A stretch of 64,000 nt of DNA, taken from NCBI GenBank assembly GCA_018662005.1, contig JABJHA010000014.1:62001-126000 (forward strand), read 5' to 3'. A program made the position numbers and the translations under genes. Positions 1,581 through 8,493 of the stretch are shown here, piece after piece; position 1 is the stretch's first letter; the number at the start of each line of letters is the position of its first letter. The notes beneath the pieces were generated by a model. The model was not told where the DNA came from. It saw only the letters and a list, made by a program, of their open reading frames with translations, and did not search any database. This stretch comes from Rhodospirillaceae bacterium (GTDB lineage: Bacteria; Pseudomonadota; Alphaproteobacteria; Rhodospirillales; JABHCV01).

Positions 1581-1658
1581 GTGCCCGCCAATCTTTTTAA
1601 CGGCGACGGAAGCCAACACGCCGACAGACACCTCAGCCTTTCATCAGGAGATAAAACC

Positions 1659-2645
1659 ATGACAAGAATTTTCAAATTGAGCCACCCCATTGCCGAAAAC
1701 GTAAACGCCAGGCCGAAAGACGTTCTGTCGGCGAAGCGCTTTTTGTATGACAGGGGATTCTACGAACCACCAAAATGGGGACTGACTGAATTCCCCGACC
1801 ACGCCCTGATCGACGCCATCCGAGATTTCCAGCGCGCCAGCGCATTACGCGTCGATGGCGTCATGAAACCGGGTGGCTCAACAGAAGAAACGATCCGGAA
1901 AATCCAGTCCCGGGCGCGCCAGTTGCAGGGCATGGGCCGTCATGGCGATACCCTGCTCGCCCACATTAACCCCGCCGAGGCGATGATACTGAAAGCCAAA
2001 GGCGGCGCCGGGACGACGAACCCTGCGACCGGATTGCTTGAGTTTTATGACGCTGACGAAAGGCAAGGGAAATACATCTGGCGAACAGTCGGCGACAGCA
2101 AGGTGCGCTCTTCCCATGCCGAGCTTGATGGAAAAGTTTTTTCTTGGGACGACCCGCCTGAAGAAGGCCACCCCGGTGAAGAATACAATTGCCGATGCTG
2201 GGCGGAAGATGTGGAAGAGAAAAAAGAGGACAAGGAAGACTGTGAGAAAATTAAGTGGGAAGTTAGAGCTGCAAATCAAAGGATTAATGATCTCCAAAAG
2301 CCTATTGATAACGCTGAGAATAACGTATCTAAAACCGAAGATATGCTTGAAGACTTGAAATCTGAAAGGAATGCCACAAGGCTTGAATTAACGGCAGCAC
2401 AGGCTTCAATCAGGCTGGGGACTAAGACTCTAATAGGAATTGTTATCAGTACTGCATACCTGACCGATGAAATTCAAAGGCTTCAAGAAAAATTGGAAGA
2501 AATTGAACACAATATCGGCATTGAAAAGCATACGCTCGCTGATCAAAAAATGAAGCTTGAACAACTTGAGCGCAAATGCGAAAGCCATCGACAAACTGCT
2601 GAGGAATTGTCCCGTCGATACGAAGAATGTGTCAAAAAACAATAA
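1659..2645 (+). CDS. Putative effector: peptidoglycan-binding-like domain + phage MuF domain + coiled coil
   Basis: The start is ATG 1659, with AGGAG at 1646-1650, giving 328 residues. Residues about 20-85 resemble a peptidoglycan-binding domain (helices, then VDGVMKPGG and TEETIRKI). Residues about 105-190 contain a KAKGGAGTxNPxTGLLEFYD block followed by the conserved end of the phage Mu F / SPP1 gp7 domain (PF04233): YIWRTVGDSKVRSSH, then HPGEEYNCRC. In phages this domain occurs in minor head proteins; in bacteria MuF domains are also found in polymorphic toxins. The remaining 140 residues are Lys/Glu-rich coiled coil broken by one hydrophobic stretch (LIGIVISTAYL) and are AT-richer than the neighbours. 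No catalytic site is recognised. Stop codons of this gene and the convergent secreted protein are 15 bases apart. Effector function is inferred from domains and context. Confidence 0.7.
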   Translation: MTRIFKLSHPIAENVNARPKDVLSAKRFLYDRGFYEPPKWGLTEFPDHALIDAIRDFQRASALRVDGVMKPGGSTEETIRKIQSRARQLQGMGRHGDTLLAHINPAEAMILKAKGGAGTTNPATGLLEFYDADERQGKYIWRTVGDSKVRSSHAELDGKVFSWDDPPEEGHPGEEYNCRCWAEDVEEKKEDKEDCEKIKWEVRAANQRINDLQKPIDNAENNVSKTEDMLEDLKSERNATRLELTAAQASIRLGTKTLIGIVISTAYLTDEIQRLQEKLEEIEHNIGIEKHTLADQKMKLEQLERKCESHRQTAEELSRRYEECVKKQ

Positions 2646-5578: not shown

Positions 5579-5992
5579 TCAGGCCACCTTGCGATCGCGG
5601 GTGCTTTTGACGTAGGCGCGGGCGCAATGACCGGCGCAATAAGGTTTACCCTCGACGCTGGGCTGGCCGCAGAAGCGCAAATCTTCAGAACCCGGCTCCC
5701 CTTCAGGCCAGTTGCACATACCTGATGTCAGGTCTTCCATCTTGACCATATCGGCGCGCGGCGGAACCACCATGGACGGGGCCCGTACCGCTTGCGGCAA
5801 TTTCGCCACCCTGGGCGCCCTTGGCGTCGCATTAATCGGTGACTGACGTTTGGGCAGACCCAGACGGTGCACCTTGCCGACAACGGAATTCTTGGTGACG
5901 CCCAGACGGCGGCCTATTTCAAGTGTCGGAATGCCTTCGGCCCACAACGCCATAAGTGTTTTGACGCGATCAGGTGTCCAGTCGATAGCCAT
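5579..5992 (-). CDS. gcrA: GcrA cell cycle regulator
   Basis: The first 50 residues (WTPDRVKTLMALWAEG, then the helix-turn-helix IGRRLGVTKNSVVGKVHRLGL) are diagnostic of GcrA, an alphaproteobacterial sigma70-binding coactivator that stimulates promoters carrying CcrM-methylated GANTC sites. The C-terminal half has a conserved cysteine-containing block (MCNWPEGEPGSEDLRFCGQP, then YCAGHC), typical of the sigma-interacting end. At 137 residues it is somewhat shorter than the Caulobacter protein because the proline-rich linker is short. Its upstream region contains a GATTC (GANTC) site at 6048-6052 and a cluster of DnaA boxes, consistent with the Caulobacter circuit in which DnaA activates gcrA. 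Confidence 0.95.
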   Translation of the reverse strand: MAIDWTPDRVKTLMALWAEGIPTLEIGRRLGVTKNSVVGKVHRLGLPKRQSPINATPRAPRVAKLPQAVRAPSMVVPPRADMVKMEDLTSGMCNWPEGEPGSEDLRFCGQPSVEGKPYCAGHCARAYVKSTRDRKVA

Positions 5993-6047: not shown

Positions 6048-6287
6048 GATTCTGCGCGGGTCCTGCCTCCTTGTTGTTGGTTGGCGTTAAGCAGTCAAAT
6101 GCTAAAAATTTTTACTACATTTACCACTGCTTGCCTACCCCCATACTATATGTAGTTGAAATCGCTACATATTGTGGGGATTATCCACAACCTCCACCGT
6201 ATAAGGTGGTTTTATCCCCCGTTTCCACAGACTTTTCCACCTGAGGGCCGCGCTTCTTCGCACCTGCACAACAATTCCTTTTCCACA
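6048..6287. promoter_or_regulatory. DnaA-box cluster and GANTC site between gcrA and methylmalonyl-CoA mutase
   Basis: This 350-base intergenic region (5993-6342) has a perfect DnaA box TTATCCACA at 6181-6189 and four near matches on the same strand: TTATCCCCC 6212-6220, GTTTCCACA 6221-6229, TTTTCCACC 6233-6241 and TTTTCCACA 6279-6287. An AT-rich stretch (about 6095-6175) with an inverted repeat TGTAG/CTACA flanks them. One CcrM site GATTC lies at 6048-6052, 56 bases before gcrA. A TATACT at 6303-6308 is the likely -10 for the mutase gene. The cluster may control gcrA, act as a DnaA titration site, or be part of an origin; no parAB, gidA, hemE or dnaA gene is in the window. Confidence 0.6.
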
Positions 6288-6342: not shown

Positions 6343-8493
6343 GTGACATCGTCCAAGAACAAGGGACTGAACGATTGGCAGCAGGCTGCGACCAAGGAAC
6401 TAAAGGGCGGCACGCCCGACGACCTGGTCTGGAAAACGCCTGAAGGCATCGAGGTCAAACCGCTTTATACGGCAGCCGATCTGGAAGGACTGGAAGCCAT
6501 CGACACCCTGCCCGGCCTGCCCCCTTACATGCGCGGACCGCGCGCCACCATGTACGCCGGCAGGCCCTGGACGATCCGTCAATACGCCGGATTTTCAACG
6601 GCCGAAGAATCCAACAAGTTCTACCGCGACAATTTGAAGGGCGGGCAGAAGGGCCTGTCCATCGCCTTCGATCTGGCGACCCACCGGGGTTATGATTCCG
6701 ACCACCCGCGGGTCGTCGGCGATGTTGGCAAGGCAGGCGTCGCCATCGACAGTGTCGAGGATATGAAGATCCTGTTTGACGGCATCCCCTTGGATGAAAT
6801 GACCGTTTCCATGACCATGAACGGCGCCGTCCTGCCGGTATTGGCCGGATACATCGTCGCCGCCGAAGAACAGGGCGTACCGCGCGAGAAATTGGCCGGG
6901 ACCATTCAGAACGATATTCTCAAAGAGTTCATGGTCCGCAACACCTACATTTATCCGCCTGAACCCTCCATGCGCATCGTATCGGACATCATCGGCTACA
7001 CCGCCCGGCACATGCCCAAGTTCAACTCCATCTCCATATCCGGCTACCATATGCAGGAAGCCGGGGCGACCGCCGTGCAGGAACTGGCCTACACCTTGGC
7101 CGACGGTGTCCAGTACGTGAAAACGGCGGTGGAAAGCGGCCTTGATGTTGACAGCTTCGCGCCACGCCTGAGTTTCTTCTTCGCCATTGGCATGAACTTT
7201 TTTATGGAAATCGCCAAACTGCGCGCCGCCCGCCTGCTGTGGTCCGAACTGATGAGCCCGTTCAATCCAACCGATCCGCGCTCATCAATGCTGCGTACCC
7301 ACTGCCAGACATCGGGTGTGTCATTGACCGAAAAAGACCCCTACAACAATGTCGTCCGCACCACTATCGAAGCGATGGCTGCGGTGCTTGGTGGCACCCA
7401 GAGTTTGCACACCAATTCCCTTGATGAAGCGATCGCCCTGCCGACGCCGTTTTCGGCCCGCATTGCGCGCAACACCCAGCTGGTGCTGGCCGAAGAAGCC
7501 AGCATCACCCGTGTCATCGACCCGCTGGGTGGCAGTTACTATGTTGAAAGCCTGACCGCTTCACTGGTCAATGAGGCCCGCAAGCTGATCGATGAAGTCG
7601 ACGCCATGGGCGGCATGACCCGCGCTGTCGAGGCCGGTTTGCCGAAACTGCGCATCGAGGAATCAGCGGCCCGCAAGCAAGCCCGTGTTGACCGGGGCGA
7701 GGAAGTGGTGGTCGGCGTCAACAAATACGCCAAGGATGACGAAGACAGCATTGACACCCTGGAAATTGATAACGATGCCGTCCGCGAAGCGCAGGTGGCG
7801 CGCCTGAAGAACATCCGCGACAACCGCGATGACGCGGCCTGTCAGGCGGCCCTCGACGCCCTGACGCAAGCGGCTGAAAGCGGCGAAGGCAATCTTCTCG
7901 ATCTGGCCGTCGTCGCGACCCGGGCGCGTGCAACCGTTGGTGAAATTTCCGACGCCCTTGAAAAGATTTATAGTCGCCATCAGGCCAACACCCAATCCAT
8001 ATCGGGTGTTTACGGGGCGGCCTTTGAAGACGACCCGTCGTTCGCCGAAATCCTTACAAAAGTTGAAGCGTTTATGGAAGGCCGCGGCAGGCGTCCGCGT
8101 CTGCTGGTCACCAAGATGGGCCAGGACGGTCACGACCGGGGCGCCAAGGTTATCGCCACTGCTTTTGCCGATATTGGTTTTGATGTTGATATCGGGGCGA
8201 TGTTCCAGACCCCGGCGGAAACCGCCCGTGAAGCCATTGAAAATGACGTGCACGTCATTGGCGTCTCAACCCAGGCCGGCGGCCACAAGACCCTTGTCCC
8301 CGAATTGATCGCGGAGCTACGCAAGCAGGATGCGGAGGACATCATCATCATCTGCGGCGGTGTCATTCCGGCCCGTGACTATGATTTTCTCCACGATGCC
8401 GGGGTGTCGGGAATTTATGGCCCCGGAACCCATATTCCAACGGCAGCCGCTGAAATTCTTGGCATCATCGAAAAGACCCGTAAGGCCGCTTGA
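6343..8493 (+). CDS. Methylmalonyl-CoA mutase, single-chain type
   Basis: This B12-dependent enzyme interconverts (R)-methylmalonyl-CoA and succinyl-CoA, the last step of propionyl-CoA breakdown. The 716-residue chain is full length for the homodimeric Sbm/MCM type. The substrate barrel occupies about residues 35-555 ([20 protein letters not shown], the [15 protein letters not shown] block, [16 protein letters not shown]). The C-terminal B12 domain has DGHDRG with His597 as the lower cobalt ligand, then the STQAGGH and CGGVIP motifs. The GTG start at 6343 has AAGGAG seven bases upstream. Neither the propionyl-CoA carboxylase nor the MeaB chaperone is in the window. Its 3' end is overlapped on the opposite strand by the broken phage portal reading frame. 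Confidence 0.95.

Follow-up and report, generated by a model that had tools for sequence, protein, structure and literature searches.

Predicted DnaA and NrdR boxes in the control region of gcrA suggest a link to DNA-precursor supply in Rhodospirillales

INTRODUCTION

What is the function of a dense group of DnaA boxes lying between the cell-cycle regulator gene gcrA and a divergent methylmalonyl-CoA mutase gene (mcm), i.e., does it mark a replication origin, a DnaA titration site, or a promoter? This question is raised by the 64,000-nucleotide stretch analyzed here (hereafter, the window), which corresponds to positions 62001-126000 of a 145-kb contig (C14) from the 3.5-Mb draft genome of a Rhodospirillaceae bacterium, the closest named relatives of which are uncultured Rhodospirillaceae/Rhodospirillales. 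In Caulobacter crescentus, DnaA directly activates gcrA (PMC3193534). A 2025 Caulobacter study reported that S phase is delayed when dNTPs are in excess, through a mechanism left undefined; an nrdR deletion was used in that work, and gcrA is unmentioned (PMC12186491).

RESULTS

Five same-strand DnaA boxes precede gcrA

We located five DnaA boxes in the gcrA-mcm gap, all on the plus strand and within 107 bases (6181-6287; Table 1). The original prediction had described these as one perfect and four near-perfect boxes in a single orientation, a description that stands except that "near-perfect" is generous for boxes 2, 3, and 4, with two mismatches each. The score of this same-strand cluster was reached in none of 2,000 dinucleotide shuffles of the 350-bp intergenic region and, in the 539 kb of its own genome that was examined, amounted to 9 versus 4 for the next-best region. 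Likewise, the TTWTCCACA sites before gcrA are the only pair closer than 773 bp in the 3.5-Mb draft. Genome-wide, TTWTCCACA occurs 44 versus 25 times by orientation on the contigs as given, and its total exceeds that of a reversed-pattern control (41). A cluster of TTTTTCACA on another contig (C10, ~80.1-80.5 kb; L114:1590-2010) was considered as a rival group of DnaA boxes and rejected, as it is lysine-rich repeat coding sequence; the gene encodes a lysine/alanine-rich, histone-H1-like repeat protein, the codons of which mimic TTTTTCACA DnaA boxes.

Table 1. Features of the gcrA-mcm region (window coordinates)
Feature	Position	Strand	Sequence	Remarks
gcrA, cell-cycle regulator GcrA	5579..5992	-		137 aa; Pfam PF07750, E 2.4e-31; match to NCBIfam GcrA model below strict cut-off
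CcrM methylation motif	6048..6052		GATTC	56 bases before gcrA start codon at 5992
NrdR-like box A	6112..6127		core CTACATTTAC, 6115-6124	weak, model score 4.6; overlaps likely gcrA -10
Tentative gcrA -10	6114..6119	-	TGTAGT	read from promoter listing
TAGGCA/TTGCCC-like element	6132-6137			12 bp upstream of tentative gcrA -10
NrdR box B	6143..6158		ATACTATATGTAGTTG, core 6146-6155	score 15.5, nrdJ-trained model
NrdR box C	6162..6177		TCGCTACATATTGTGG, core 6165-6174	score 14.3, nrdJ-trained model; 19 bp from B
DnaA box 1	6181..6189	+	TTATCCACA	perfect; TATCCACA invariant in six family members
DnaA box 2	6212..6220	+	TTATCCCCC	2 mismatches; 31 bp from box 1; position kept in family, mostly YTATCCMC
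DnaA box 3	6221..6229	+	GTTTCCACA	2 mismatches
DnaA box 4	6233..6241	+	TTTTCCACC	2 mismatches; 3 bp after box 3
DnaA box 5	6279..6287	+	TTTTCCACA	1 mismatch; common to closest relative only; adjoins mcm promoter
Methylmalonyl-CoA mutase (scpA/mcm)	6343..8493	+		divergent neighbor of gcrA

We then compared the boxes among relatives. Box 1 is present, almost without change, in every family member; box 2 persists in a weaker form; and boxes 3 to 5 become sparser with distance, such that boxes 4 and 5 are found in the closest relatives only; at the box 3 position, two relatives of the genus carry better matches (GTATCCACA and TTTTCCACA). Most genomes of the order have one DnaA box in a comparable position, and a box of the TTATCCACA type with at most one mismatch lies upstream of gcrA in 16 of the 27 sampled families. 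This distribution, together with the known activation in Caulobacter (PMC3193534), supports the predicted control of gcrA by DnaA. A titration site (datA- or DARS-like) that adjoins gcrA by chance would also account for a DnaA-box density unmatched in the 539 kb examined and for the spacing of boxes 3 and 4, which is the double-box spacing preferred by E. coli DnaA (PMC11317965). We consider such a site improbable, given that only box 1 is kept family-wide and that most of the order retains a single box at this place. Moreover, up to six DnaA boxes are present at the DnaA-activated hdaA promoter of Caulobacter, so density alone is no argument (PMC3193534).

The replication origin probably lies elsewhere, and the GATTC site is probably incidental

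The DnaA box cluster and its adjoining AT-rich stretch had also prompted the suggestion that this region is the chromosomal origin. A GC-skew analysis spoke against it: skew on contig C14 is negative on both sides of the cluster, with no sign change, and the cumulative minimum is on a different contig (C4) at ~140 kb, at a gap of ~0.5 kb between hemE and the PPDK-regulator gene (RP001). In Caulobacter and many alphaproteobacteria, oriC usually sits in the hemE/RP001 neighborhood, and oriC of this genome likely lies between these two genes (L312; contig C4 140900-142500), at a site that is poor in consensus DnaA boxes. Based on the skew and the hemE/RP001 location, we rejected an origin upstream of gcrA and attach next to no credence to it.

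A GATTC site had likewise been reported 56 bases before gcrA, and it is present there (Table 1). GANTC motifs are three times rarer in the window than expected (84 versus 261), a scarcity that is as expected with CcrM, so a single one before gcrA is not remarkable. Within 450 bp upstream of gcrA, four of the five family relatives have no GANTC, which rules out the site at 6048 as a conserved element and leaves a CcrM/GcrA feedback role for it without support; the site is probably incidental.

Palindromic boxes next to the DnaA boxes match NrdR boxes

The earlier reading of the control region recognized the DnaA boxes and missed a set of NrdR boxes, the conservation of which is at least as high. 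We built a 16-bp motif model from 56 nrdJ-promoter boxes of relatives only and defined strong sites as those scoring at least 10. Before nrdJ, the gene for class II ribonucleotide reductase, these genomes carry the boxes as pairs 31-32 bp apart. Applied to E. coli, the nrdJ-trained model recovered the pairs at nrdHIEF and nrdDG (scores of 10.7-15.2) and three boxes at nrdAB (14.4 for box 1), with the published 31/32-bp geometry (PMC12176259); thus, we treat it as a model of the NrdR box.

Boxes B and C before gcrA are 16-bp palindromes that match validated NrdR boxes and score as strongly as those of E. coli. No other two strong sites lie within 70 bp of each other in the 539 kb examined of this genome, and CTATATGTAG and CTACATATTG in the control block are two of only 32 CWAYATRTWG places in the 3.5-Mb genome, many of the others being inside genes. 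Across the six family members, the core of box C carries at most one mismatch. Box A is weak when taken alone; it lies exactly 31 bp from box B, and the A-B pair scores 20.1 at this spacing. At the -10 position that box A overlaps, many relatives have TATAGT or TATTGT. The B-C spacing, 19 bp, differs from the span known for NrdR tetramers (31-32 bp). We also considered the whole B-C inverted repeat as a single operator and rejected it, because the changes in relatives keep each 10-bp box near the NrdR consensus and break the larger repeat.

The genome encodes NrdR (TIGR00244, E 3.2e-51; C28:9595-10032), as do 55 of 60 relatives; since nearly all genomes have nrdR, its presence was uninformative as a discriminating test. 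The promoter of the second reductase gene of this genome (807 aa) has no near-perfect box.

NrdR boxes recur upstream of gcrA across the order

Six family members share a nearly gap-free block (~6110-6225), and the spacer between this block and gcrA varies by more than 100 bp in length. To extend the comparison, we used 58 gcrA upstream regions of the order, retained after removal of near-duplicates by a simple identity filter, and found 71 strong sites versus 2.4 in shuffles. The sites are confined to the vicinity of the gene, with 3.6 strong sites per kb within 300 bp of gcrA versus 0.07 per kb beyond 400 bp (~50-fold), the distal flanks of real sequence being mostly coding; shuffles and own-genome contigs, which are independent controls, agree. 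Pair spacings of 19, 32, and 50 bp (the last equal to 31 + 19) stand out at scores of at least 10, joined by 31 bp at scores of at least 6, and the chance expectation for any one spacing is well below one occurrence. Because kinship makes the genomes non-independent, counts by family are more reliable: among the 27 sampled families, 22 have a strong NrdR site and 15 a diagnostic pair, alongside the 16 with a DnaA box. No strong site was found before gcrA in five of the 27, though their genomes have nrdR. A DnaA/NrdR composite sharing 2 bp, of the form TTATCCACAAYATNTWG or close to it, occurs in 5 of the 27 families, and such an overlap would let only one of the two proteins bind at a time. A weaker signal is also seen in the other orders of the class (18 strong sites versus 2.2).

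Many genomes of the order place mcm beside gcrA, and DnaA box 5 adjoins the mcm promoter, so the boxes might instead serve the mutase gene. We reject this assignment as very unlikely: in one relative (L063), another neighbor stands in place of mcm and the DnaA/NrdR block is kept, indicating that the block belongs to gcrA, and several genomes (L073, L083, and L091) carry boxes with no mcm adjacent.

The ccrM promoter carries NrdR boxes

The ccrM gene of this genome (recognized by the NCBIfam CcrM model, below its strict cut-off) sits behind rnhB and is preceded, at ~120-150 bp, by two NrdR boxes 31 bp apart (L186:1079-1125; contig C12 ~111.08-111.12 kb). Boxes were found upstream of ccrM in 26 of 29 relatives' genomes, with 24 strong sites within 300 bp, whereas the 14.5 kb lying beyond contained none; DnaA boxes were absent upstream of ccrM in the 29 genomes. 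These data suggest that ccrM belongs to the same putative regulon as gcrA.

We also weighed whether DnaA alone controls gcrA, the palindromic boxes binding a different factor that also controls nrdJ and ccrM. In favor of such a factor, 19 bp is not a known NrdR spacing, and gcrA and ccrM are absent among NrdR targets in the literature searched. We nevertheless judge it unlikely, as the nrdJ-trained model picks out experimentally established E. coli NrdR boxes and pairs at 31/32 bp recur at both gcrA and ccrM.

DISCUSSION

We consider it probable that the region is the control region of gcrA, with its promoter, at which DnaA would activate and dATP-loaded NrdR would repress transcription, coupling GcrA/CcrM to the dNTP pool. 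We infer that both proteins occupy their boxes, that NrdR acts by repressing, and that its role is to sense dNTPs. As in Caulobacter, gcrA would be activated by DnaA bound at box 1 (6181), which is perfect, and probably at the weaker ones farther right. NrdR, whose DNA binding requires dATP together with ATP or ADP (PMC12176259), would in that state bind boxes B and C and probably A, which lies over the likely -10, and would repress gcrA when dNTPs are plentiful. A comparable placement is known from Pseudomonas, where NrdR box 1 overlaps the -10 (PMC4409342). Weighing against this reading, one predicted pair in E. coli, nrdAB boxes 0 and 1, was barely bound (PMC12176259). Consumption of dNTPs after initiation would lift repression, so that gcrA, and CcrM via the ccrM boxes, would be timed to ongoing replication. 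Since the same NrdR boxes precede gcrA, ccrM, and nrdJ in the order, ribonucleotide reductase, GcrA, and its partner methylase CcrM may form one dNTP-responsive regulon. The sign of NrdR action on gcrA is uncertain, because NrdR activates topA in Pseudomonas (PMC4409342).

Control of gcrA by DnaA is known from Caulobacter (PMC3193534); control of reductases and topA by NrdR is also known. The present region resembles the Caulobacter gcrA promoter in having gcrA with an upstream DnaA box, for which direct activation was demonstrated in that organism (PMC3193534), and differs from it in having five such boxes rather than one; NrdR boxes are unreported for the Caulobacter promoter in the literature searched. 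It shares with the NrdR regulon (nrdHIEF, nrdDG, and nrdAB of E. coli; nrd genes and topA of Pseudomonas) the 16-bp palindromic boxes, the 31/32-bp spacing, which in the window involves the weak box A and across the order recurs alongside 19 bp, and one box over the likely -10, and the same model fits both. In contrast to reductase genes, the targets predicted here are gcrA and ccrM, with an extra 19-bp spacing and, in some families, overlap with a DnaA box. A further parallel is the E. coli nrdAB promoter, which unites DnaA (cited in PMC4898720) and NrdR (PMC12176259) sites, whereas the gene controlled here is a master cell-cycle regulator. We found no NrdR-gcrA or NrdR-ccrM link in the literature searched, mostly outside subscription journals.

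DnaA and NrdR sites before gcrA suggest that the master cell-cycle switch is tied to DNA-precursor supply, and the conserved NrdR boxes before gcrA and ccrM would be a concrete wiring for dNTP input into the alphaproteobacterial cell cycle. If so, NrdR, thought to be nearly specific to ribonucleotide reductase, would also govern a master transcription factor and an epigenetic methylase. On a broader proposal we are evenly divided: that NrdR regulates the cell cycle in Rhodospirillales and relatives, dATP-NrdR repressing gcrA and ccrM along with ribonucleotide reductase and competing with DnaA at overlapping gcrA boxes, such that entry into the GcrA/CcrM program would need both replication initiation and falling dNTPs.

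Several minor observations concern the surroundings of the control block. A Shine-Dalgarno-like AAGGAGGCAGG (window 6068-6078, minus strand) is kept in five of six family members and sits ~70-190 nt before the gcrA start codon, gcrA itself having no obvious Shine-Dalgarno sequence; it is possibly a leader element. Rfam gave no RNA element in the region before gcrA, with a single chance-level match elsewhere. In the closest relative (L062), an insertion of ~115 bp between control block and gcrA carries a TGCATTTAAA...TTTAAATGCA inverted repeat. Farther away, the protein encoded at window 1581-2645 combines Phage Mu F-like and peptidoglycan-binding domains and is possibly a prophage remnant.
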